Positions 2,709-15,720 of a stretch of 43,729 nucleotides of DNA are shown one piece after another. The stretch covers positions 1 through 43,729 of the forward strand of contig NZ_JAKOAV010000029.1 of assembly GCF_029478095.1 (NCBI RefSeq). Direction: 5' to 3'. Position 1 is the stretch's first letter. Each line of letters opens with the position of its first letter. Under the pieces are notes generated by a model, which made no database searches, was not told where the DNA came from, and saw nothing but the letters and a program-made list of their open reading frames with translations. Origin of the DNA: Pelotomaculum isophthalicicum JI (GTDB lineage: Bacteria; Bacillota; Desulfotomaculia; Desulfotomaculales; Pelotomaculaceae). Made by a program: the position numbers and the translations under genes.

Positions 2709-4283
2709 TTATTCGTCAATTTGAATTTCAATACCGGACTTAAATTCAACTATGATGTGGTCGTCGTAAACCGTTATCTTTTCCAAGAGAGTCCTCACAT
2801 AGTCTTCTTCATATTCAGTTAGCTCACAAGGCAGGTCGTTAAGGAAACGCATCAACTCATCAATTCGCTTTTTCAGATCCTGTCGGGATGCCTGCTCGTT
2901 TTGAAGGGACTGCTTCTCATCGCGCAGCCTCCTAATCTCCAGACCAAGCTCATCACCGGTATTCTTAGAATTAACGGTTGCCATTAGCTCCTGCTGCATT
3001 GACTTCATCTGCTCATCAATCGCTGCAATCTGATTCGTAGTGTCTTCCTCCAGACTGCTCTCGATATTCTCTCGTAAAAGCGGTAGGATTGCTTCCTTTT
3101 CGCGGAACGCTTCGTTTATAGCCTTTATAACTACCTTCTGAAGCAATTCTTCGTGAACAGTTCTTGCCAGGCAATCAGGGCCGTCTTTTTCAACCCTGCT
3201 GACACAGCGCCAAACGGTGGACTTACACCCGCGATTGTTCCATTTAATTCTGCGGAATATGTCACCACAGTATGCGCAGAAAACTATTCCGGATAAAGCG
3301 TAGCGACCACTATAGATTCGTTTGCGCTTTGTGGTGCCTTTGGTAAGATTTGCGCGTCTTGCGATTTCCCCCTGTACCTTTAGAAAAATATCCTTTGGAA
3401 TAATAGCTTCATGGCTGTCCTCTACATAATACTTAGGAACCTGTCCCCTATTAGCTTCACGCTTCTTTTCAAGAATATCCACCGTATAAGTCTTCTGAAG
3501 CAAAGCGTCTCCGATGTACTTCTCGTTTGTAAGTATCTGCTTAATATTGCTTTCATGCCATTTTTCATTACCAGCACCGTTTAAAATCCCGTTGGCTTCA
3601 AGCGATCTTTTTATCTGTAAGAAGCTCTTACCGGAAAGGTACTCTCTATAAATACGCTTCACAACTTCGGCTTGCTCTGGATCAATGATGAGGTGCCCCT
3701 CTTCATCTTTGGTATATCCCAGGAACCAGTTGTGATTGACCTGAACTTTTCCTTGTTGATATCGGAACTGTAAACCCAGACGAACGTTGGCCGACAACGA
3801 CTCACTTTCTTGCTGTGCAAGAGAAGCCATAATGGTCATGAGCACTTCACCCTTAGCATCAAGTGTATTGATATTTTCCTTTTCGAAATAAACACCAATG
3901 TTCTTGTTTTTAAGGGCTCTAGTGTAATTCAGGCAATCCACTGTATTCCTTGCAAATCGGCTGATAGACTTGGTAATCACCATATCAATCTTGCCCTCAT
4001 GGCAGTCGTTAATCATGCGCCGAAACTCATCACGCTTCTTCGCATTCATTCCGGAAATGCCGTCATCCGCATAGATTCCTGCCAGCACCCAGTCTGGATG
4101 GCTTTCAATGTATGAGGTGTAATGCTGAATCTGTGCTTCATAACTGGTTTCCTGTTCATCGCTGTCAGTACTGACTCGGCAATACGCTGCGACTCTGGTT
4201 TTCTGCTTTTTGTCGGTTGCCTTTTGCGTACCGACTGTTTTCTTCGCAGGAATGACCGTAACATTGCTCGCAAGTGAAATCAT
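2709..4283 (-). CDS. Large serine recombinase (second of two complete ones)
   Basis: A 524-residue site-specific recombinase of the large serine (resolvase/invertase) class, which makes staggered cuts through a phosphoserine intermediate to integrate or excise the element. The catalytic Ser is residue 38 in [11 protein letters not shown]; the catalytic domain continues through SISRFARNT and EKENINT. The recombinase domain follows at about 200-300, then a zinc ribbon (CAYCG, later WRC and DCLA) near 340-375, and a coiled coil near 420-490 ([23 protein letters not shown]). The start overlaps the stop of the small recombinase by ATGA and has GAGGTGG before it. It could be the true integrase or a partner of the 4701-6260 protein. 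Confidence 0.9.
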
Positions 4284-4696
4284 TTTTCCACCTCACTTTC
4301 AATCAAACTGTAAACATACTCAGCTTGCTTAAATGGATCGATAAATATCTTTCCTGCTTTCGGCATAATAAATTTCGTAGCTGGTTTACACTCCTCTACC
4401 GGCTTATCTGCAAATATTCTGCCCATTTTTCGCTGCCGTTTGAATCGCTCTGCTTCTGCTCTATCAAAAGTCTCCTGATCGATGATTGCCGGGTAATACT
4501 TATCACCAAGGTATCGTTTATTCTGTAGTATTCTCTTTACACTTGGGTGAGAAAGCTTTAGTCCAACAGCTTCAGCTGCAGCAACGTAGGCGAGTCCGGA
4601 TAGATAACCCTTGAAAATCATTCTGACCCGCTCCGCATGCACTTCATCTATGACCGCTTTGCCTTTCTCAATTTTGTATCCGTATGGAATTGCCAT
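4280..4696 (-). CDS. Recombinase-domain-only protein (no catalytic domain)
   Basis: A 138-residue protein matching only the DNA-binding recombinase domain of large serine recombinases: IPYGYK at the start, then [31 protein letters not shown] and [12 protein letters not shown]. There is no YxRVS catalytic domain and no zinc ribbon, so it cannot cut DNA by itself. The frame is open and tightly packed: four bases after the upstream recombinase stop and an ATGA overlap with the next one. This suggests a real partner, perhaps a DNA-binding subunit or directionality helper, rather than a decayed gene. A weak GTGAGG site precedes the start, so translation is probably coupled to its neighbour. Confidence 0.75.
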
Positions 4697-4700
4697 AGCC

Positions 4701-6260
4701 TCACAACCTTTCTCTTAGCGTTAATCCGCACTTTAGCACAAAGCCTATTTCAAACCTCTTGAACACGATAATGTACTCTACATGCTCCTGAAATGCTGTC
4801 TCATCAAAGTCTTTAAGAGTGCCTACGGTATTGATATATTTGATGAGCTTATTCAAGGCTTCCAGATGCTCGTTCTCATGAGCGAGCGAAGCGTATAGTG
4901 CTTCTTTTTCATCGCCAATTTGTTTTGCCTCAGCAAGCAGACCTGAATTCTGTTCATTGAAAACAGCTGCTTCAAGGTATTCCTTCGCAAATAGCTCTGT
5001 AATCTTCTGTCTTTTGTTCAAATTATCCTCAAGAGCTTCATCCAATTTATTAATTCGAGCCAGTGCCTCGCCCTGATTAAGATCTTTTAGGCTTGCCAGT
5101 AGCGGCTGCAATAACACTTTCTTAGAAAATACCAGTTTGTTGATCATATTCAAGAAAGCCACTTCAATATTTCTTTCGCGGATAAATTGCATGCTGCACT
5201 GGTCTACTCTTTTTATATGTGTTTTGCAGGCGTAAGCGAAATACTTTACTTTCGATTCGCTATGAGTTCTCCTTTTCCATGTAGCACCACATTCGCCGCA
5301 AACAATTTTTCCAGAAAAGGGATAGCGGTTTTGATACTTTGCATCGCCTTGCTTGATTTTCATGTCTTTGGAGCGCTGGTCAATCATGGCCTGCGCCGCT
5401 TCAAAATCCTCAGCACTGATAATTGCTTCATGGTGTTCGGTAACATAGTACTGCGCCTTCTCACCATTATTGATATGCCTAACGAAGGAACTGTCAGTAA
5501 ATGTCTTTTGAAAAAGCACATCACCTTTGTACTTTTCATTCCGAAGGATCGCGTTCACTGTGCCCGTTGACCATTCGGTTTTGCGTCTTGTAGGGATTCC
5601 TCTATCATTAAGATCTCTTGCAATTACATGCCCGCCTTTACCGGCTAAGCATTCTGCAAAAATGTACCTGACTACATCAACCTCATCTTCATTGATCACC
5701 ATCAGGCCATCTTCGTTTTTGTACCCGTAAGGCGGAGAGGCAACAATGTATGTCCCATTTTGAAATCTCTTCTCAATGGACCATTTTTCATTCTCCGAAA
5801 GGGAAATAGACTCACTTTCTGCCAAGCTGCTAAAAATTGTGAGCAGCAGTTCATTCTCCATATCGCCGGTGTTGATATTTTCTTTCTCAAAGTAAATGAA
5901 CACCTTCAGCTTTATAAGCTTTCTAACCGCTTCAAGGCACTCTGTGGTATTTCTTGCAAAGCGGCTGATGGATTTTATAATAATAAAGTCAATCTTCCCA
6001 GCTTCACAATCATCGAGCATTTTTAGAAGTCCATCACGCTTGGCCATGCTTGTACCGGATATGCCTTCATCATAGTAAAGTCCGACATATTCCCAGTTGG
6101 GATTGCTCTTAATGCAAGTCTCATAATGACTTCTTTGAGCATCCAAACTGACGAGTTGTTCGCGACTATCTGTTGAAACACGAGCGTAGGCGGCAACACG
6201 CAGTTTTTTAGGTGCCTTCTGCAGCTTCTCATTTGCTTCAATCTTTGTTATCCGTTTCAT
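4701..6260 (-). CDS. Large serine recombinase (first of two complete ones)
   Basis: A 519-residue large serine recombinase. Catalytic Ser29 lies in VAAYARVSTDS, followed by [21 protein letters not shown] and a SESISLSENEKW helix. The recombinase domain spans about 185-290 (PPYGYKNEDG, LRNEKYKGD). A zinc ribbon follows (CGECG, then CKTH and a later Cys), then a coiled coil near 400-470. The start at 6260 has AAAGGAGG eight bases upstream; the frame extends to 6317 but those codons lie over a conserved promoter-like element (6282-6320). With its two neighbours and the SHOCT-like gene it forms the integration/excision cassette. Confidence 0.9.
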   Translation of the reverse strand: MKRITKIEANEKLQKAPKKLRVAAYARVSTDSREQLVSLDAQRSHYETCIKSNPNWEYVGLYYDEGISGTSMAKRDGLLKMLDDCEAGKIDFIIIKSISRFARNTTECLEAVRKLIKLKVFIYFEKENINTGDMENELLLTIFSSLAESESISLSENEKWSIEKRFQNGTYIVASPPYGYKNEDGLMVINEDEVDVVRYIFAECLAGKGGHVIARDLNDRGIPTRRKTEWSTGTVNAILRNEKYKGDVLFQKTFTDSSFVRHINNGEKAQYYVTEHHEAIISAEDFEAAQAMIDQRSKDMKIKQGDAKYQNRYPFSGKIVCGECGATWKRRTHSESKVKYFAYACKTHIKRVDQCSMQFIRERNIEVAFLNMINKLVFSKKVLLQPLLASLKDLNQGEALARINKLDEALEDNLNKRQKITELFAKEYLEAAVFNEQNSGLLAEAKQIGDEKEALYASLAHENEHLEALNKLIKYINTVGTLKDFDETAFQEHVEYIIVFKRFEIGFVLKCGLTLRERL

Positions 6261-6281
6261 TGTCTCAACCTCCTTTCTCGC

Positions 6282-6320
6282 AGTACTATACATCACTCTA
6301 AAAGCCTTATTTATCAAGTC
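6282..6320 (-). promoter_or_regulatory. Copy 1 of a conserved element of about 36 bp upstream of minus-strand genes
   Basis: Minus strand: ACTTGATAAATAAGG, then CTTTTAGAGTGATGTATAGT, then ACT. It matches the elements at 28345-28380 and 29486-29524 (shared core ACTTG-TA-TA, then AGAGTGATRTAT, then GTA). It ends 22 nt before the recombinase ATG. A TTGATA box and a TATAGT box are visible but 21 bp apart, so it may be an unusual promoter or an RNA signal. Confidence 0.5.
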
Positions 6321-6322
6321 TT

Positions 6323-6538
6323 TTAGGACATAATCTCAGCTAAAAATGGACAGAACGTTTCACGGTTTTTGACCATTATCTTGTCAAATTCACTCTGGCT
6401 AATAAGCCCCTTTTCTAAGAGCTTCTTTGTAAGTTTTTCTGCAACCAAATAATCGTGCTCGTTCTTAAGGGAAGCCTCTGTAGGCTTTTCCGCTACATAC
6501 TTTATGGAATCAACGGCTTCTAATTTTGTTAATTTCAT
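6323..6538 (-). CDS. SHOCT-like small protein of the recombinase cassette
   Basis: A 71-residue protein whose C-terminal half (KLTKKLLEKGLISQSEFDKI) resembles the short SHOCT domain, a two-helix module often met in small phage and mobile-element proteins. The start at 6538 has AAAGAGG upstream; the frame extends to 6574 without a better site. It is the first gene of the recombinase cassette and sits 50 nt after a copy of the 31-bp bipartite element. A role as recombination directionality factor or regulator is possible but not shown by the sequence. Confidence 0.7.
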   Translation of the reverse strand: MKLTKLEAVDSIKYVAEKPTEASLKNEHDYLVAEKLTKKLLEKGLISQSEFDKIMVKNRETFCPFLAEIMS

Positions 6539-6587
6539 TTTCTCGACCTCTTTCCGAGGGAACATATCAATCAATACCCTCTAACAG

Positions 6588-6618
6588 TCCCAGGACAGAA
6601 ATCAGCCGAATGAACGAA
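6588..6618 (-). promoter_or_regulatory. Bipartite 31-bp element, copy A
   Basis: Plus strand TCCCAGGACA (6588-6597), 13 bp, TGAACGAA (6611-6618). Read on the minus strand it is TTCGTTCA-N13-TGTCCTGGGA followed by CTGTTAGAGGG, and it ends 50 nt before the ATG at 6538. The same element, spacing and flank occur before the two replication operons (copies B and C). Probably a shared promoter or operator. Confidence 0.6.
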
Positions 6619-6636
6619 AAAAAGCAAAAAAAATAG

Positions 6637-6668
6637 TGCCTACCGAAAGACGAATCTCTCGATAGGCA
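6637..6668 (-). terminator. Terminator of the late operon after the amidase gene
   Basis: On the minus strand TGCCTATCGA and TCGGTAGGCA form a 10-bp stem with one G-T pair around a 12-base loop, followed by CTATTTTTTTTGCTTTTTTT. It begins 12 bp past the amidase stop. It is the strongest intrinsic terminator in the window. Confidence 0.85.
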
Positions 6669-6680
6669 TTAAATTGATTG

Positions 6681-7385
6681 TTATTCGCTGTATTTAATAA
6701 AGGCATCGGTGAAGCCAGCTGCTTTGACCTTGCTGAGCATGGTCTCTGCGTTTGCCTTAATAGAAAAGGCTCCAATCTGGACGCAGTAGTATTTCTTGGG
6801 TGCAGCCGTCTCGACCGGGTCAGCAGAGGCAAGACCGGATTTTACATCGGAGCGGAAGGTATCCATCGACTTGCCATGTTTAGGAAACCAATGCATTACA
6901 TCACCATGATTGCTGGCGATGCCTTGCTTATATCCTTCGCTATGGCAAATAATATCTTTTTCAGTTAGACCAAACTCCTTACATAGATAGACACAAAGTT
7001 CAACGGCCTCCCGGTACACCTTGTTGAAATAGGTGCTGTCCGAAAGACCATCCTCGCAAATCTCAAAGCCAATATGTGTGTCGTTTGCTTTTCCTCCGGC
7101 GTGCCAGCCTCGGTGGTTCCATGGCAAAGTCTGATATGTGGCGATTGTTCCATCTGCCAGCTTACCGATGAAGGCATGAACGCAAACCTGACTGCCGCCG
7201 GGCTTATCTTGATTCCAATGATTGTTGTATTGGTTCTTTCCGAGCAAACCGTCATCCGGTCCAACATAGCGCTTCAACCATGGGTTATTTGCCCCCGTGG
7301 AGTGTACCATGATGCCTTTGGGAATTATCGTTTTGCCTGCTTTGAAGCAGGCATTATTTATAAGTATTAACTTGCGTAAATTCAT
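6681..7385 (-). CDS. N-acetylmuramoyl-L-alanine amidase endolysin with SPOR-like tail
   Basis: The phage endolysin, cutting the amide bond between muramic acid and the stem peptide of host peptidoglycan at the end of infection. The Amidase_2-type catalytic region covers about residues 20-165: GIMVHSTGANNP carries a zinc-binding His, WNHRGWHAGG another, and ICHSEGYKQGIASNHGDVMHW the third with its surroundings. The C-terminal 40 residues (YYCVQIGAFSIKANAETML, then KVKAAGF) form a SPOR-type peptidoglycan-binding repeat. No signal peptide is seen, as expected for holin-dependent release. The start at 7385 is set by GAGGTGA seven bases upstream. It follows BppU and holin. Confidence 0.93.
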   Translation of the reverse strand: MNLRKLILINNACFKAGKTIIPKGIMVHSTGANNPWLKRYVGPDDGLLGKNQYNNHWNQDKPGGSQVCVHAFIGKLADGTIATYQTLPWNHRGWHAGGKANDTHIGFEICEDGLSDSTYFNKVYREAVELCVYLCKEFGLTEKDIICHSEGYKQGIASNHGDVMHWFPKHGKSMDTFRSDVKSGLASADPVETAAPKKYYCVQIGAFSIKANAETMLSKVKAAGFTDAFIKYSE

Positions 7386-9289: not shown

Positions 9290-11761
9290 TTAAAGCTCCA
9301 AAATCAGGTCTTGAATCTGTTGCATCACACCCGCTTTTGGTCGCCCAGTTCCAATGGGTAGCCATGTTATGGACGGGATATCAAAGGTAGACGAGGAATC
9401 AAAGTTGTTCACTATAGTAATAACCGACTCAATGGCTTTTCTAAGCTCTGTGATGTGGAAAGGCCAGTTTTTGATGGTGCTCTTTCCAGCAACAATCTCC
9501 TCACTCCAAGTCACCTGCGACAGACTGTAATAGCTACGCACTGTGTTTACAGCAGTTCGTAGCATCTGGATATGAATTGCCTTTACATGCGTTTCGTTCG
9601 CGGTGATCGTCTCAAATGGCGGTGGCAATACAGTAAAAGTGCGTACAACCTCCGGACTTGACGACGCTATGTCACTATCAAGGCAGCGGACGGTCACAGT
9701 ATGGTTCCCTGCGGCCAGCGCTGCCGATTGATACACCGTTTTTACTCCATTACCCAGATAGCCGCTTACGGAAAACATCTCAGGGTTGTCTACGCTGTTG
9801 ACCCAAACACCCGTGTCGATTTTCACTTCTACAATCTGCGTTTGACCGTCCGGCTCAATACCCGTTGTAATCATGAAACGCGGTGTAGCCTTGTAACTTG
9901 AACTGCCAGATACCGGGCAGACGATTACTGGTGCAGTCGGCGGACTATTTTTCTTTACTGTACCGCTTACTACATAGGCAGAAACTGCATCCAATGAATC
10001 GGTTACGCTGATACGGTAGCGGGTATACATTCCAGCTATCTGAGAAGCATTCGCTATATATGTCCCCGAGGTGGCACTTGAAACGACGATTGTTAGAGCC
10101 TCGTATGCCGACCAGTTAATCCCGTCCGTTGAAGTTGAACGCTGAATGACATACTGCTTGATAGCGCTGGTTCCGGGTATCGTTCCGCTCCAGGTAAGAG
10201 TTACGGTGCTGGATTCGTAAATGGCAGGAGCAGCGGTAAAGGAAGTCGGTGGTGTAGGCAGTGTATTTCTGCGGACTGTGTTGCTAGAAACAGTCCAGTC
10301 TGAGTAGAAACTCTCCCCAGCTGCACCACGTGTTCTTACCCTAAATCGGCGGTAATTTCCGCGTGTAGTCGGTGGACTGACAATTACGCTGCCGCTTGTC
10401 GCTGAAGTAAACACCGTAGTCAGTGCTGTCCAGTCTCCCCATGTGCTGTTATCTGCCGAATCACTATATTGTATCTCATAGGATGTAATGGCATTTCCCG
10501 CACCACCGGATGCTCCACTCCATGAAAGGGTTACGTTTCCTTCAGCCAACGTTGCGTTTACCGAGCAAGCGGTTGGTGCTACGCAGGCAGTAATATCGCA
10601 GTAGATGCTGTTACTGATCATTTCTGAAGAGTAAACATCCAGAGTATCTATCGTCCAAATGCCAAATTGGGTATAGGTTCCTGGAATTCTCGATACATTT
10701 GGGTTGTAACTGCCGCCACTGGCCGAGAGTGTCAGAGTGGTAAGAACGCTCCATGAACTCCAGGTAATGTTATCCGTGGATGTTCTGCTGGCAATCTGGT
10801 ATCCCTTGATGGCACTTGTTCCACCGGAAGCTCCGCTCCATGTCAGCGTAATCGTTTCGTCGCTATAGTTTGAAGGAGAAGCCACTGCAGTGGTTGGTGC
10901 GCTTGGTACAGTATTTCTGCGGACAGAGTTCGTTGATACCTTCCAACCGGAATAATAGCTTGCTCCAGCAGTACCACGTGTCCGTACCTGAAACCTACGA
11001 TAATTGCCTCGCGTCGAAGGCGGCGCAACAGAAGCGCTGCCGCTAGTGGCAGTTGTGGTTACCGTGGTCAGTGCTGTCCATGCTCCCCATGTGATATTGT
11101 CAGCGGAATCGCTGTATTGTATCTCATAGGAGGATATTGAGTTATTTATACCGCCCGATGCACCACTCCATGACAAAGTAACGTTGCCTTCCGAGAGAGT
11201 TGCATTTAACGAGCAGGAAGTCGGAGCACTGCAAGCGGTTGTACGGCTTGCCCAGTTAATAGTCAGTACAATCTGGCTTAAGTTATCCCTTGCACCAAAG
11301 CCCATGTAGTTTAAGGTGCTGGAGCCTGCATCCATGAATAGGCAGTTGCTGGCACCACTACCGATAGAATCAATTAGCGCGGTGGAAATGGCGATATCTT
11401 TTGCGCCTTGTCCGGCGGAAACGGTGTAGTTATACCCAGAGGTAACCTTTGTGGGCCTGCTCCCAGACACGCTGGTGCTGGAACTGGGTGCTGGCATGCC
11501 AGAAGCATTTCCTGCATACAGCGTCATGGTTCTGGCGGAGCCCCAGTCACCTGCAGCTATTCTGACAAGGTGAATGCTGGCCGATGTGGGATAATAGTTT
11601 GCGTAAGTATTCCGGATGCTGGCAAGGTCAAACAGCATAGCGCCCACGTTCTCATAATTGTTAGCATCAGGATAAACACCTTGCCGAACATAATCCGTTA
11701 CACCTGCGATCCAGCTACCATTACGCCATGTACACGCATTAGTTGCCTGATAAGTTGCCAT
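9290..11761 (-). CDS. Fibronectin type III repeat tail/fibre protein
   Basis: An 823-residue virion protein. Residues 1-175 form a beta-rich N-terminal domain (SARTMTLYAGNAS, LTINWASRTT). There follow about four FN3-like domains near 178-610, with GNVTLSWSGASGG and YEIQYSDSADN signatures appearing twice, then a further Ig/FN3-like domain near 610-710, and a C-terminal helical region (IHIQMLRTAVNTV, ITELRKAIESVI) that recurs at the end of phage structural proteins. FN3 domains in phage structural proteins often bind surface polysaccharide; that role here is inference. The two-domain unit is duplicated in tandem. Confidence 0.8.
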   Translation of the reverse strand: MATYQATNACTWRNGSWIAGVTDYVRQGVYPDANNYENVGAMLFDLASIRNTYANYYPTSASIHLVRIAAGDWGSARTMTLYAGNASGMPAPSSSTSVSGSRPTKVTSGYNYTVSAGQGAKDIAISTALIDSIGSGASNCLFMDAGSSTLNYMGFGARDNLSQIVLTINWASRTTACSAPTSCSLNATLSEGNVTLSWSGASGGINNSISSYEIQYSDSADNITWGAWTALTTVTTTATSGSASVAPPSTRGNYRRFQVRTRGTAGASYYSGWKVSTNSVRRNTVPSAPTTAVASPSNYSDETITLTWSGASGGTSAIKGYQIASRTSTDNITWSSWSVLTTLTLSASGGSYNPNVSRIPGTYTQFGIWTIDTLDVYSSEMISNSIYCDITACVAPTACSVNATLAEGNVTLSWSGASGGAGNAITSYEIQYSDSADNSTWGDWTALTTVFTSATSGSVIVSPPTTRGNYRRFRVRTRGAAGESFYSDWTVSSNTVRRNTLPTPPTSFTAAPAIYESSTVTLTWSGTIPGTSAIKQYVIQRSTSTDGINWSAYEALTIVVSSATSGTYIANASQIAGMYTRYRISVTDSLDAVSAYVVSGTVKKNSPPTAPVIVCPVSGSSSYKATPRFMITTGIEPDGQTQIVEVKIDTGVWVNSVDNPEMFSVSGYLGNGVKTVYQSAALAAGNHTVTVRCLDSDIASSSPEVVRTFTVLPPPFETITANETHVKAIHIQMLRTAVNTVRSYYSLSQVTWSEEIVAGKSTIKNWPFHITELRKAIESVITIVNNFDSSSTFDIPSITWLPIGTGRPKAGVMQQIQDLILEL
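9940..11230 (-). repeat. Tandem duplication of a two-FN3 unit (about 0.65 kb each)
   Basis: Within the FN3 gene the block starting at NATLSEGNVTLSWSGASGG returns about 216 residues later as NATLAEGNVTLSWSGASGG, each followed by a GNYRRF, VRTRG then VRRNT region and a second domain beginning PTPPTSF or PSAPTTA. Limits are approximate, read by eye. Confidence 0.65.
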
Positions 11762-11772
11762 AGAAATTCACC

Positions 11773-12279
11773 TCACTCATATACCGCCGAAACCAGCGAA
11801 TTTACCAACCCACAAAGGCCGGTATTCAGACGGGTGTCAGTAATATTATTTGCGACTATTGATGTAGCGGCTGTAGGTACAAGCACATCTGCAATACCAA
11901 GTTCGTAGACGTCACTAGTTCTTGTCAGCGCAGGTGCCACTGGCGTTGCAGCGGGAGTACCAGCAACAACAGCAAGCTGAATGCTACGGCTGATCTGACT
12001 TAATCGGATCACAATCCGGTCAATACGTGGATTGCTTCCATTTGCAGTTGTCAGTGGCATATTTAAGACATCTGTATTCTCATAACGGTATCCATTAATC
12101 CACGCACTTCCTGCTGCCACATTCACAGCCAAGCCAATTGCTGGCGACACCTGTAGGTTTGTTGTTGCCATATAAAAAACACCGTTGGAGACGAGACTTC
12201 CGAAATATGCCGCAAAATCTGCAGCATCATAGACTCTGTCTCCACCCGATGAGTTGAAGAAGCCATATTTTTCAGCCAT
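11773..12279 (-). CDS. Baseplate/fibre protein (168 residues)
   Basis: A virion protein placed between the baseplate hub gene and the FN3 fibre. It starts MAEKYGFFNSSGGDRVYDAA, a motif common at the N-terminus of clostridial phage tail appendage proteins, and continues AGSAWINGYRYENTD and NPRIDRIVIRL, as in base-plate-associated receptor-binding subunits. A start fragment of a second copy survives at 13723-13779. Ribosome site AAAGGAGG lies before the start. It is 11 bp upstream of the FN3 gene start. Confidence 0.7.
   Translation of the reverse strand: MAEKYGFFNSSGGDRVYDAADFAAYFGSLVSNGVFYMATTNLQVSPAIGLAVNVAAGSAWINGYRYENTDVLNMPLTTANGSNPRIDRIVIRLSQISRSIQLAVVAGTPAATPVAPALTRTSDVYELGIADVLVPTAATSIVANNITDTRLNTGLCGLVNSLVSAVYE
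12235..12258. repeat. 24-bp direct repeat, copy 1 (right-hand partner at 13738-13761)
   Basis: TCTGTCTCCACCCGATGAGT followed by TGAA, identical to 13738-13761 in the same orientation. It encodes FNSSGGDR in the start of the baseplate/fibre gene. The two copies bracket the 1.5-kb XRE/zinc-ribbon cassette. Confidence 0.9.
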
Positions 12280-12330
12280 AAAAATCCTCCTTTATTCATA
12301 ATCTTGTTATCCTCCGTTCGGGCAAGTAAA

Positions 12331-12352
12331 AAAGACCACCGAAGTGGTCTTT
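12331..12352 (-). terminator. Terminator closing the XRE/zinc-ribbon cassette
   Basis: On the minus strand AAAGACCAC-TTCG-GTGGTCTTT, a perfect 9-bp stem with a TTCG loop, followed directly by more T (six T in a row in all). It lies 28 bp past the stop of the last cassette gene and before the ribosome site of the baseplate gene. A strong terminator inside a late operon shows that the cassette is its own transcription unit. Confidence 0.85.
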
Positions 12353-12380
12353 AAGATCTGTGTTAAATGAAATTCTCAGC

Positions 12381-12629
12381 TTATTGCCCGTGGGCTTTAA
12401 CTAGCTCTTCGTGCGTGTAACCAAACATATAGTCCTCATCGCAACCGTTTGAGAAATATATATCCGCCGCATCCCATACGCTGAGTGATTCGCCGCTATC
12501 CTCATCATCTTCATCTGGTTCTCCAAAAGCGACGATTTTGCCGCAGTTAGGACATTTCCAGTCCCCGCCGCCTATGTACTCCATGTCATATGCGCCGCAA
12601 CGACCGCTTCCGCAATTATAGGGTATCAT
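12381..12629 (-). CDS. Small zinc-ribbon protein of the cassette
   Basis: An 82-residue acidic protein. Two Cys pairs are visible: YNCGSGRCG at the start and WKCPNCGKIV near residue 29, suited to binding one zinc. The second half (EDDEDSGESLSVWDAADIYF, then YMFGYTHEELVKAHGQ) is an acidic linker followed by a helical segment that I associate with small hypothetical proteins of Bacillota. The start overlaps the stop of the gene before it by four bases (ATGA) with GAGGAG upstream, so the two are translationally coupled. Function unknown. Confidence 0.75.
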   Translation of the reverse strand: MIPYNCGSGRCGAYDMEYIGGGDWKCPNCGKIVAFGEPDEDDEDSGESLSVWDAADIYFSNGCDEDYMFGYTHEELVKAHGQ

Positions 12630-13156
12630 TTTATCTCCTCCTCATCATTTTGACTTTCTAAATTATTATCCGTCGGCTCGCTTTCGTTTGGATACCGAGC
12701 GAAATTCTTCTCGCCGCACGACTTGCAGATAATATAATCATCATGGCTGCCTTCTTTGCTCTCTGGAACGTATGTTGACTCGACAAGGGGTTCTCCGCAG
12801 TTAACGCAAGTACCGACATTTTGTAACTCAATGGACTGCAGATGGGCTTGTTTTGCCTTTGCTTTTCTTTTTAGCAGTTTATAAGTTATAAATCCACCAA
12901 TAGCGGTAGCGCCTAAGATAATGCCCCCAATAATCAGCGTGTTCTTGTTGGAACTTTTGGTGACGATTGTTTTTGAAATCAGGGTGTCTGCCTTAGGCTT
13001 TATCGCTACAGGGGCGGCACCTTTCCCGGTTTCTCTTATAACAGTTTTTATGGTGTCAATCCCTTTGTCTATAACTTCATAGGTAAAGGAACCTAGTTTA
13101 TAATTTCCATCGGTGTATTGATTTCCGAAAAAAGGATGTCCCGCAGGAGCGCCCAT
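12626..13156 (-). CDS. Membrane-anchored zinc-ribbon protein of the cassette
   Basis: A 176-residue protein with a single membrane segment near residues 73-95 (NTLIIGGIILGATAIGGFIT) followed by a basic stretch (KLLKRKAKAK) and a zinc ribbon (CVNCG about residue 116 and CKSCG about 144). The N-terminus carries GHPFFGNQYTDG, a short motif seen in otherwise unrelated phage-encoded proteins. By the positive-inside rule the zinc ribbon probably faces the cytoplasm. The tail is acidic. Start has GGAGG upstream. It sits between the XRE gene and the small zinc-ribbon gene. Not a recognisable virion protein; function unknown. Confidence 0.75.
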   Translation of the reverse strand: MGAPAGHPFFGNQYTDGNYKLGSFTYEVIDKGIDTIKTVIRETGKGAAPVAIKPKADTLISKTIVTKSSNKNTLIIGGIILGATAIGGFITYKLLKRKAKAKQAHLQSIELQNVGTCVNCGEPLVESTYVPESKEGSHDDYIICKSCGEKNFARYPNESEPTDNNLESQNDEEEIK

Positions 13157-13175
13157 AACGTTGTACCTCCACAGC

Positions 13176-13643
13176 TTATTTCAGTAGTTTCTTTGACCAG
13201 CTGGTCGAACCGCCGATTATAGCCCCAATGACGGGAACCACAAAGGGAATAGACTTAATGAGTATATCGAAAACACTGTCGAGTTTTGCCGTTGGCGTTC
13301 CTCCGGCAGCAGTTGCAGCAACCGTTCCCACAACGTCTTGAACCTTTGAGTAATCGTCCTCATCAAGTTCATCGTCGCTATCCAGCAAAAGTGCCACGAC
13401 TTTCGGAAGAACCTCGTTATCTTTGTTGTTTTCAATTTCAGCATCAATAACAGAGCGGATAGCAATATATTGGGTAAAATTCATCGGTGTCTTTTGGTTT
13501 TCAAGATTGCTGATGGTTTGTTTTGTCACCCCAATTTTGTCACCCAAGACCTCAGCTGTCCAACCTGCAATTTTTCTTATTGAAGACAGGTTTTGTTGTA
13601 ATTTCTTAATTTGTTTCTCTCGTTCCCTTGCTTTGTCAGACAC
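13176..13643 (-). CDS. XRE HTH protein with a hydrophobic C-terminal segment
   Basis: A 155-residue protein. Residues 15-70 form an XRE domain (IRKIAGWTAEVLGDKIGVT, then KQTISNLENQ). A long acidic helical region follows (DSDDELDEDDYSK), then a Gly/Ala stretch, and finally a hydrophobic run FVVPVIGAIIGGSTSW, long enough to reach into or cross the membrane. The start is GTG at 13643, set by AAAGGAGGG nine bases before it. A sigma-A-type promoter with an overlapping 15-bp palindrome precedes it, so it probably represses itself. It leads the three-gene cassette. It could be a prophage repressor, an exclusion factor or a stress sensor. Confidence 0.8.
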   Translation of the reverse strand: MSDKAREREKQIKKLQQNLSSIRKIAGWTAEVLGDKIGVTKQTISNLENQKTPMNFTQYIAIRSVIDAEIENNKDNEVLPKVVALLLDSDDELDEDDYSKVQDVVGTVAATAAGGTPTAKLDSVFDILIKSIPFVVPVIGAIIGGSTSWSKKLLK

Positions 13644-13668
13644 AATATATCGCCCTCCTTTAACAACA

Positions 13669-13707
13669 AGAATATCACATATACTTTACACTGTCAAATA
13701 ATTTGAC
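13669..13707 (-). promoter_or_regulatory. Cassette promoter with operator palindrome
   Basis: Minus strand TTGACA (13692-13697, perfect -35), 17 bp, TATTCT (13669-13674) with an upstream TG (extended -10). The palindrome GTCAAAT-T-ATTTGAC (13693-13707) overlaps the -35 box. It sits 26 bp before the GTG start of the XRE gene. Confidence 0.75.
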
Positions 13708-13722
13708 TAAATAAAACTGAAG

Positions 13723-13779
13723 CTATGCATCAAAAAATCTGTCTCCACCCGATGAGTTGAAAAATCCACTCTTCTCCAT
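13723..13779 (-). pseudogene. Truncated first codons of a second baseplate/fibre gene copy
   Basis: Reads MEKSGFFNSSGGDRFFDA then a stop, with AGGAGG upstream, in the natural position just after the baseplate hub gene. It matches the start of the intact gene at 11773-12279 (MAEKYGFFNSSGGDRVYDAA) and shares 24 identical bases with it. The remainder was displaced by the XRE/zinc-ribbon cassette. Confidence 0.8.
13738..13761. repeat. 24-bp direct repeat, copy 2
   Basis: Identical to 12235-12258, same orientation; it lies in the truncated gene start. Recombination between the two would remove the cassette and restore one in-frame baseplate gene beginning MEKSGFFNSSGGDRVYDA. Confidence 0.9.
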
Positions 13780-13797
13780 ACACTATTTTCCTCCTTC

Positions 13798-15720
13798 TTA
13801 AACAGTTTTCGTATACTCTATAACCACATAACCTGTATATGATGTCCGGTCATTACCAGGTTCGACAACGACATTGGTTGTATCCATATAAAGCCCAATT
13901 TGCGAGGCGAAGTTGTTGTAACGAGCAAGTGGCAGCGGCAAGAAGACGGTCCCGTTTGTCGCAAAGCCTGTTAAACTGACAACAGTGCTGAGGTTTGTTA
14001 TGCCGTGGGCTACGCTTTTCGGTGTCGTATTTGTAAGTGACCCAAGATTCACGTGCTTGCGATAAATCGTCTTACCATCAATCCATAAACGCCCTGTGTT
14101 TTGTTCTGTCGTTGAGTAATCGGTAAACGCAGATGATATTTTAGAAGCGGTAATCGTACGATCTGCGATCTTTACGCCGGTGACTGCGCCGTTTGCAAGC
14201 CTAGTCGTGGTTATTGGTTCATTATTGATATTGAGCCAGTTTGCCTGCCCAGATAGGTTATTGAATACAAAAACAGAAATTACATAAAACGTCATAGTGT
14301 CCCTACTGATAAAGAAACCCATTGCTCGCTGATAGCCATAGCCCGTGTTATCCCCATTATGCTTTGTTAAAAAGACATGTCCGTTTTCACTTGGTTGATC
14401 ACTGAACTTGTTACCACTGTACGAGGTGAAGTATAAAGTATCTCCCGGCACCATGTTGTACAAGGCATACTGACCGACCGATATGGTACCCGGACCTACA
14501 AAAATTTCGAGTGCAGGAAGTTTCCCAAACAGGTTGTTAAAGGTATCTGCGACGTCATCACCCTGAATTTTCGGGTCCACCTGCGCCAAGTCGCCCAGTG
14601 TTCCTTCCACGACGCTCAGGGCTTCGGCAACTTCGGATATGCCGGTAGGTGCCAATAGTGCTGTTTTAACCTCGCTCATGTCGGAGCGGACTTTCTGCGC
14701 TATAGTTAGCTCAGCCTTTCCAAACACTACGCTGATGCTCTGCCCATCCGCGTCATATGTTTCTTCGATCTCGGTGATTCGCGTAGTCATGGATACGCCC
14801 CATGCCTTGGAGATTACTTTGACGGTCTGCCCAAGGTCGAAGTCTATCTTGTAGGTCAAGTTGCCATGCGGATTGACCGATGTGTCAAACGTATATCGTA
14901 TTGCCTGTTCATTCAGCTTACTCTGACCTCGAAAAGTCAGAGTATTGACGTAATCTGTTCCAAAGTCCTCAGCCCGTAAGTCTTTGGCATCCACGAAGAT
15001 CTCGCGGCGAGTCTCCCCAGAACCGCTTGTGATGGCGACAAATGTACGGCCTGCGCCTTCACCCTCGCCACCGATGAGTGCGGTATTGGCGTAATCCGCT
15101 ACACTCTCTGTATATATCTGTTCCGTAAGATTCTCGTACTCCTTTGAGAATACCGCTTGGGAGTTGGCCCCGTTATACAGCATCACTGTAAAAATACCTG
15201 TAGCTGGAGTGAATACAGTCTTAATGCCAATATCCGAAGAGGCGCAAAGTTCCGTCACTGAATCCATCAGATTCCGATATGATATCTGAGTACTAACAGG
15301 AATGCCCAAGTTAGGAGATGAGAAGGATATACCGGTAATCTGCCGTTCCGTGTCGGTAGGGCTGATGATATTATTATTTAAAAGCTGCTCAACACAGACA
15401 GAAAGATCTCCGGAAAGTATCTCTGTTTGCCACAGAATACGCCGGGCGAGTAAGGATGTAGCAAAACGGCCACTCGCAGTGATAGTTTCATGCTCAGATT
15501 GAGACAATTCCAGATGCTCAATGATTCCGGCTTCCTCATCATCGTTCTTCCAAATGATGTTCCCCTCTTTTAAGAGCGCAGTGTTCTCCTGTGTTGCAAT
15601 TGCTTTTAGCTCAAATGAACCACACTGGGAGTAACGCCGTGTCCAGCGCAGGTACTCAAAAGACTCCACAATACCCGTAAGCTCCCGGTTTGGATTGTAG
15701 ATATATAGTTGCATATTCAC
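13798..15720 (-). CDS. Tail/baseplate hub protein with Gp37-like (ReqiPepy6) domain
   Basis: A 640-residue tail-tip protein. Residues 1-350 match the siphovirus ReqiPepy6 Gp37-like domain used as tail-associated hub or lysin carrier in Gram-positive phages (YIYNPNRELTGIVESFEYLR, SGRFATSLLARRI, TEIEETYDADGQ). Residues 370-540 form a linker with an RPSEN... type beta domain, and the C-terminal 100 residues (LWIDGKTIYRKHVNLGSL) look like a receptor-facing domain. It overlaps the distal tail stop by four bases. The second Met (15714) is an alternative start. Confidence 0.8.
   Translation of the reverse strand: MNMQLYIYNPNRELTGIVESFEYLRWTRRYSQCGSFELKAIATQENTALLKEGNIIWKNDDEEAGIIEHLELSQSEHETITASGRFATSLLARRILWQTEILSGDLSVCVEQLLNNNIISPTDTERQITGISFSSPNLGIPVSTQISYRNLMDSVTELCASSDIGIKTVFTPATGIFTVMLYNGANSQAVFSKEYENLTEQIYTESVADYANTALIGGEGEGAGRTFVAITSGSGETRREIFVDAKDLRAEDFGTDYVNTLTFRGQSKLNEQAIRYTFDTSVNPHGNLTYKIDFDLGQTVKVISKAWGVSMTTRITEIEETYDADGQSISVVFGKAELTIAQKVRSDMSEVKTALLAPTGISEVAEALSVVEGTLGDLAQVDPKIQGDDVADTFNNLFGKLPALEIFVGPGTISVGQYALYNMVPGDTLYFTSYSGNKFSDQPSENGHVFLTKHNGDNTGYGYQRAMGFFISRDTMTFYVISVFVFNNLSGQANWLNINNEPITTTRLANGAVTGVKIADRTITASKISSAFTDYSTTEQNTGRLWIDGKTIYRKHVNLGSLTNTTPKSVAHGITNLSTVVSLTGFATNGTVFLPLPLARYNNFASQIGLYMDTTNVVVEPGNDRTSYTGYVVIEYTKTV

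Follow-up and report, generated by a model that had tools for sequence, protein, structure and literature searches.

In this study, we describe a three-gene cassette within the tail module of a temperate siphophage in Pelotomaculum isophthalicicum JI. The DNA analysed (the window, 43,729 nucleotides) comprises positions 1-43729 of one contig of the 3.6-Mb genome. The cassette encodes a predicted XRE-type repressor, a membrane zinc-ribbon-like protein (P2) and a small zinc-ribbon-like protein (P1), and we lean towards the view that it is a mobile, autoregulated anti-phage-type cassette carried by the phage as a moron. This view is based on its own predicted promoter, a likely autorepressor, a membrane protein, a terminator and recurrence among phages, plasmids and defence-rich loci. 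The anti-phage function is deduced from association and seems to us slightly better than an even guess; if it holds, the cassette of a dormant virus probably protects its host from competing viruses. The window phage gave strong PHROGs matches for terminase, portal, major head protein, tape measure, holin, endolysin, DNA polymerase, exonuclease and two serine integrases. Because of these two integrases it is presumably a prophage; a chromosomal flank is not seen in the window.

An earlier reading of the same DNA (the original prediction) had proposed a cassette of an XRE, a membrane zinc-ribbon and a zinc-ribbon gene that is equipped with a promoter, an operator and a terminator, and all these elements were found on the minus strand between two tail genes of the same strand. 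The first gene (13176..13643, minus strand) encodes the XRE-type repressor, a protein of 155 amino acids (aa) with a GTG start, a helix-turn-helix (HTH) domain matching HTH_3 (PF01381, E-value 1.6e-6; 28.5 bits against a cut-off of 23) and a C-terminal hydrophobic segment. It is followed by P2 (12626..13156, minus strand; 176 aa), with one transmembrane (TM) segment placed by hydropathy and alignment, and by P1 (12381..12629, minus strand; 82 aa), the gene of which overlaps that of P2 by 4 bp. As had been proposed, two proteins carry membrane segments and the regulator ends in one: the 19-residue stretches 125-143 of XRE and 73-91 of P2 have mean Kyte-Doolittle (KD) hydropathies of 2.05 and 1.94, and P1 has no hydrophobic segment by KD hydropathy. 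In P2, an N-terminal HPFFGNQY motif and four cysteines (C117, C120, C144, C147) are invariant in an alignment of six sequences. P1 has homologues in the same cassette of loci L013 (65%) and L019 (42%), and its C-terminal SNGxDxDYxFGY motif is kept in 3/3 sequences. The Pfam zinc-ribbon matches of P1 and P2 are under the cut-offs and therefore the assignment of these two zinc ribbons, as originally proposed, rests on the cysteine pattern.

Neither P1 nor P2 reaches the curated cut-off of any Pfam or NCBIfam family. None of the three proteins has a significant match to a structural family in PHROGs, in line with the non-structural nature first suggested, and one weak PHROGs match leads to a moron "membrane protein" (1.2e-5). 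Apart from this match and the HTH of XRE, the description "undescribed" still applies across Pfam, PHROGs, NCBIfam and PADLOC; likewise, neither the XRE family nor the gene pair is described in the literature searched, which excluded bioRxiv preprints altogether and the majority of subscription papers. For the window XRE, the AlphaFold2 model has a mean predicted local distance difference test (pLDDT) score of 86, with >90 in the HTH part and ~55 in the last ~20 residues. Foldseek gave no match to this model at E 0.001 or better. The listed neighbours were mostly HTH proteins and the best (E 0.09, TM-score 0.29) is an entry that we take to be the Stl repressor; for the C-terminal half no counterpart was found among them. 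The predicted structure of P2 was poor (pLDDT 49) and unusable for fold comparison. The GC content of the cassette is 0.426 against 0.454 for the phage, and 61/423 windows of equal length are as low.

The insertion is evident from comparison with two phages, L061 and L116, whose sequence in this part of the tail module is near-identical to that of the window and in which the two genes lie 18 bp apart. The upstream gene (13798..15720, minus strand) encodes a Sipho_Gp37-like minor tail protein (Pfam 1.1e-87; phrog_538 2.9e-152) and is 97% identical in L061 and 96% in L116. The downstream gene, P0004 (11773..12279, minus strand; 168 aa; phrog_9534 6.1e-67), is 95% and 96% identical, respectively. 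The latter belongs to phrog_9534/1220, which PHROGs labels "head protein"; one of its GenBank relatives is named "receptor-binding protein" and many are named "tail protein". The window tracks L061 through the upstream gene, a ribosome-binding site and ~17 codons of the downstream gene, departs at ~13727 and rejoins at ~12264. Alignment with the empty-site phages thus places the inserted DNA (~1.46 kb) at about 12266-13726, a better estimate than the limits 12259-13737 originally given, although the region was right. The insert ends with a fresh ribosome-binding site, an ATG and first codons that read MAEKYGFF in place of MEKSGFF, and the old start is left as a remnant of 18 codons and a stop (MEKSGFFNSSGGDRFFDA, 13723..13779, minus strand). 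Therefore, the insertion disrupted the old start of the tail gene and brought a replacement with it. A 42-bp, 88% direct repeat that was missed in the original prediction flanks the cassette, with one copy inside the remnant (13727..13768) and one inside the intact tail gene (12224..12265); it arose from duplication of the 5' end of this downstream gene. Relatives of the downstream gene were found in 73 viral loci, and in 68 of them an open reading frame (ORF) of at least 100 aa ends at most 60 bp upstream, the five exceptions being L068, L093, L126, L132 and L133. None of the three cassette proteins is encoded in these 73 loci (up to 10.5 kb each, E 1e-3). No transposase or integrase was recognised in the insert, and homologous recombination with a donor phage at the conserved gene start may be the simplest route of insertion.

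Upstream of XRE, a predicted sigma-70-type promoter (TTGACA-17-TATTCT with TG; 13669..13697, minus strand) is overlapped at its -35 box by the right half-site of a predicted operator palindrome (GTCAAATTATTTGAC, 13693..13707). The strong promoter of the original prediction is present, and the consensus alone was rejected as evidence, since the region 11000-15000 holds eight such promoters against 6.5 +/- 2.3 in shuffles. What lifts the cassette promoter above chance is the operator, which is conserved in the XRE family and is the sole exact copy of GTMAAAWWAWTTGAC, a perfect palindrome, in both the window and the genome. No second copy was found in the window with one mismatch allowed. The pattern GTNAAANNNNTTGAC occurs exactly upstream of 20/29 XRE family members and with at most one mismatch in 24/29 (150 bp upstream); in sequences resampled from the same dinucleotide transitions, the mean counts were 0.015 and 0.275 and the highest 1 and 2. 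The members span Clostridia, Bacilli and one Bifidobacterium, although those related to each other do not count as independent. The operator and operon counts omit, of 42 XRE loci, the streptococcal L039-L049 and the weak matches L050-L054; the operator count also omits L029 and L037 (start unplaced), L012, L003 and L006 (upstream DNA short, missing or unplaced), L005 and L135 (same phage as L016 and same unit as L136, respectively) and XRE loci found later. Because TTGAC doubles as the -35 box, other TTGAC sites in the same loci are a fairer control: GTNAAA stands at operator distance from 1/657 of them, compared with 25 occurrences upstream of XREs, palindromic sites being counted on both strands. 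By this conservation, the operator originally proposed over the -35 box of the cassette is a real element, and the palindrome supports autoregulation by XRE.

As a stand-alone finder, a stretched operator pattern was rejected. It matched seven stretches in viral contigs, of which only that in the Enterococcus phage L010 precedes a family XRE; the other six (in five contigs) precede unrelated genes, and hence the operator alone is unspecific. In the unrelated phage contigs L157, L158, L160 and L161, a match precedes a small gene followed by what is presumably, from a motif, a cytosine methyltransferase gene. At the other end of the cassette, the 9-bp-stem intrinsic terminator that had been predicted is present (12321..12352, minus strand; stem 12352-12331, U-rich tail), with a folding energy of -12.4 kcal/mol (z -2.8; 2/200 shuffles equally good).

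The original prediction had suggested looking for the genes as a unit at varying positions, and XRE and P2 were found together in other phages, on plasmids and in chromosomes. They lie side by side in the Enterococcus prophage L016 (IMG/VR contig L005 represents this phage as well), at a different tail-gene junction; the empty-site phage L149 aligns across this junction with its two genes adjacent, and the insertion is clean (L016 positions about 5912-7157, ~1.25 kb). Both the window cassette and that of L016 were thus inserted between genes that are adjacent in relatives, as is characteristic of morons. A 70% repeat flanking the L005/L016 cassette was considered as an insertion duplication and rejected; it reflects paralogy, because the two adjacent tail genes of the empty-site phage L149 are equally similar. 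The XRE and P2 pair also occurs in phage contig L006, where it adjoins serine integrases, in L014 (Eubacterium aggregans) and in L015, where P2 is interrupted and the unit lies ~0.23 kb from a tRNA-Leu gene. In L013 (Ruminococcaceae), the pair is followed by the third gene, with a specificity subunit ~2 kb and a type IIG restriction-methyltransferase ~3 kb away (PADLOC 2.5e-160). In L019, a Bacillota metagenome-assembled genome, the pair has a related zinc-ribbon gene as its third member. Genes for an AAA_5 protein and a McrBC component are located ~2 kb upstream of this unit, and after it begins a phage tape-measure gene that shares 76% identity with that of the window over 84 residues. Two conjugative plasmids of Lactococcus lactis, p275D and pIBB109_AgSa_3, share one identical XRE and P2 unit. 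On pIBB109_AgSa_3 a gene annotated as ToxN/AbiQ-family toxin lies ~3 kb from it, and p275D is described, in the accessible part of its report, as carrying a complete type II restriction system (PMC6458302). A degraded P2 is present on a Latilactobacillus sakei plasmid, with no XRE seen in the stretch examined.

The third gene varies: it is zinc-ribbon-like in the window and L013, encodes a glycine-rich hydrophobic protein in L136, is represented by both types in L019 and is replaced by other small ORFs in L006, L014 and L016. The glycine-rich hydrophobic protein (~111-116 aa; L136 3644-3979, L019 6956-7306, L030 4763-5101, L032 1468-1806) occurs in XRE and P2 units and between XRE and AbiH. 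It has no PADLOC match (L136 and L030 copies) and no Pfam match (L030 copy), and is possibly a shared membrane effector. Weak P2 matches in L007-L009 were dropped, that of L007 lying inside a large unrelated gene. HPFFGNQYT is present in one viral contig, and HPFFGNQY was dropped as a signal of a wider family because its DNA pattern occurred among 398 genomes of the phylum only in the own genome and no wider family was found.

Relatives of the window XRE head operons with other partners. Among 16 XRE-family loci tested, 12 have a PADLOC model among the downstream partners; these 16 are the loci with a sizeable gene within ~1.5 kb downstream of XRE, loci with only small downstream genes being outside the count. 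Cut-offs were E 1e-3 or 1e-5, depending on the run, and every counted locus has a match of 3.4e-10 or better. Downstream of XRE lie BnzB of Bunzi (L021, 1.2e-66; L022; L012), AbiH (L030, Pfam 2.3e-41), a TmtA match (L018), PDC-M62 (L034), PDC-M40 (L023, L027, L138), PDC-M09 (L031, L153) and a type I methyltransferase (L036, where a further small HTH gene intervenes). We take the PDC models to be candidate defence models. The downstream partners in L020, L028, L037 and L056 gave no PADLOC match. Of the upstream control genes in the same loci, 3/10 have a PADLOC match: RecD-like (L020), JetC (L023) and PDC-M31A (L034). A hydrophobic C-terminus (19-residue mean KD of at least 1.6) is found in 25/28 XREs. 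In the tree, the eight P2-type XREs group with L017, L018 and L029 in a single supported clade (98/91, 11 rows), L018 and L029 being on long branches; therefore, the partner type follows descent in part. L018, L029, L035 and L156 have sets of XRE, a small TM protein unlike P2 and a zinc-ribbon-like protein. In L018 (5971-12166), XRE, TM protein, zinc-ribbon-like protein, a 116-aa protein and a TmtA-like protein of 1479 aa are encoded directly after phage tail and holin genes. The XRE and BnzB cassettes of L022 (5980-9710) and L012 (246-3011) directly adjoin phage-type serine recombinase genes, and the L022 endolysin is of the same PHROG (15001) as that of the window. Streptococci L039-L049 carry a family XRE, with no operon partner evident in those examined (all but L042).

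Together, these features suggest how the cassette might work. XRE would bind the palindrome that overlies the -35 box and thereby repress the operon that encodes it. Transcription in the lysogen would start from the cassette promoter, at a regulated level and without dependence on the late genes. P2, as a single-pass membrane protein with a zinc-ribbon-like domain, is the likely effector and P1 might be an accessory. At the cell membrane, the two would jointly counter a superinfecting phage, either by exclusion at DNA entry or by abortive membrane damage. Potentially, the hydrophobic tail of XRE links derepression to membrane state or to the partner of XRE; conservation of the tail in most members would be consistent with membrane sensing.

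Several observations weigh against an anti-phage moron. Neither P1 nor P2 matches any family of PADLOC-DB 2.0.0 at E up to 1, and XRE has only weak HTH matches there. Among the P2-type units, only those of L013, L019 and the two L. lactis plasmids lie near defence-type genes, none of these in the same operon. In the 12/16 count, partner genes were picked by size and several matches are to PDC models; the upstream control genes sit in defence-rich DNA and are not size-matched. The unit is also rare: the HPFFGNQY DNA pattern is present in 1/398 genomes of the phylum (the own one) and the XRE family in 4/398, own included, and XRE was found in 1/100 relatives and P1 in 1/113 genomes (the own genome in both cases). 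Finally, tail and lysis genes are situated downstream of the cassette terminator, so that either late transcription has to read through or the phage may be impaired. The L016 cassette also has a terminator ahead of tail and lysis genes, so that both phages seem to tolerate it or to be impaired.

A lysogenic conversion unrelated to phages, for instance a metal, envelope or stress function at the host membrane, would accord with a membrane protein with a zinc-ribbon-like domain, with the weak match to a moron membrane protein and with the surroundings of L014, L015 and L017, where no defence gene was evident on reading the ORFs (no family search was made of those neighbours). We consider it unlikely, since the unit recurs near restriction genes (L013, L019) and related XREs have defence partners. 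Much the same standing, and hardly more than an outside chance, is given to an addiction (toxin-antitoxin-like) module that stabilises the prophage or plasmid, with XRE as antitoxin and autorepressor and a hydrophobic partner as membrane toxin; in practice it overlaps with abortive infection. The XRE HTH does resemble HipB/Y4mF-type antitoxins (TIGR03070 2.9e-8; HipB structures ~2e-8 by profile), the partners are small and hydrophobic, and the unit occurs on plasmids. However, the TIGR03070 score of 33.5 is far under the cut-off of 71.65, Pfam, PHROGs, NCBIfam and PADLOC identify no HipA-like or known toxin in the cassette, and related XREs head operons of very different effectors, which is unexpected for a dedicated antitoxin.

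An XRE fold with an operator, in a temperate phage with two serine integrases, could also suggest a lysogeny or immunity regulator of the phage itself. This is highly improbable: the window holds no further copy of the operator, closely related phages possess the tail genes but lack the cassette, plasmids carry the unit too, and another HTH regulator (HTH_26, 9.3e-13) stands beside the integrases at 2347-2601. A virion role, as baseplate components or chaperones, finds hardly any credence with us. The position between tail genes on the same strand and a non-significant match of XRE to a tail fiber chaperone PHROG (0.19) could be taken in its favour, but the cassette proteins are absent from all 73/73 phage loci with the neighbouring tail gene, are present on plasmids and have no significant structural match in PHROGs.

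Returning to the anti-phage moron, it is tempting to speculate beyond this cassette, on tentative grounds. An unnamed XRE repressor family with a membrane-inserting tail might be a common switch for interchangeable anti-phage effectors across Bacillota, the tail sensing membrane disturbance caused by phage DNA entry or insertion of a partner; the XRE and HPFFGNQY pair would be a new member that travels as one unit between prophage tail modules, plasmids and defence islands. If the anti-phage reading is right, it would contribute an antiviral module that is carried by a phage and has a predictable operator, and would suggest that one hydrophobic-tailed regulator family controls many different defence operons. 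How potentially toxic defence genes stay quiet, and whether the membrane itself carries the on-signal, would become testable questions. An XRE profile combined with a check for the upstream operator would be a simple finder for further modules.

Elsewhere in the window, 2709-6317 holds a pair of large serine recombinases that are separated by a short recombinase fragment (4280-4696, PF07508). Two large serine recombinases in a row likewise occur in phage contig L006 and phage NatCom_11578 (L012). Beyond the integrases at the phage end, a minus-strand set (55-2601) comprises the HTH_26 regulator, a 226-aa gene and a PD-(D/E)XK nuclease (PF14281 1.4e-25; weak PADLOC PDC-S26 match, 1.5e-7), possibly a second defence-type cassette.

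In general kind, the cassette is comparable to phage morons and to prophage superinfection-exclusion or defence cassettes. It shares with them a predicted promoter and terminator of its own, a position between late genes, absence from sister phages and a membrane protein. It differs in that its gene content matches no described system in the libraries searched, in that it encodes an XRE repressor of its own, hydrophobic-tailed and with a conserved operator, and in that its GC content is only slightly lower than that of the phage. The Stl, SinR, HipB and C-protein XRE structures resemble the HTH part of the window XRE model, HipB and SinR also by sequence profile, but no counterpart was found for its C-terminal half. 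A HipB/HipA type II toxin-antitoxin system is not indicated, given the sub-threshold TIGR03070 score and the lack of a HipA match in the cassette. As far as the accessible parts of the reports go, BrxR/CapW (PMC9122601), RptR (PMC12255303) and CapK/CapS (PMC13373217) resemble the family XRE in that a regulator gene heads defence operons, diverse ones for BrxR/CapW, and the cassette belongs to none of them by the features compared. About 48% of BrxR homologues co-localise with known systems, and BrxR/CapW homologues are predominantly from Proteobacteria (PMC9122601), whereas the XRE family was seen here mostly in Bacillota; the cassette XRE has no WYL match in Pfam and consists of an XRE HTH and a hydrophobic C-terminal part. 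RptR autorepresses via a conserved promoter site of three 6-bp palindromes, TAGCTA, over the -10 box (PMC12255303), in contrast to the window cassette, where a single palindrome of 15 bp overlies the -35 box, and CapK/CapS is a kinase-repressor pair (PMC13373217), unlike the window cassette. In regulator and operator, the cassette resembles the Bunzi and AbiH operons (L021, L022, L012; L030): their leader XRE is homologous to the window XRE and the operator is exact in L021, L022 and L030, as in the window. A Bunzi system comprises BnzA and BnzB genes, and BnzB was found only with related XREs elsewhere; in place of BnzB or AbiH, the window cassette carries P2 and P1, which match no PADLOC model.

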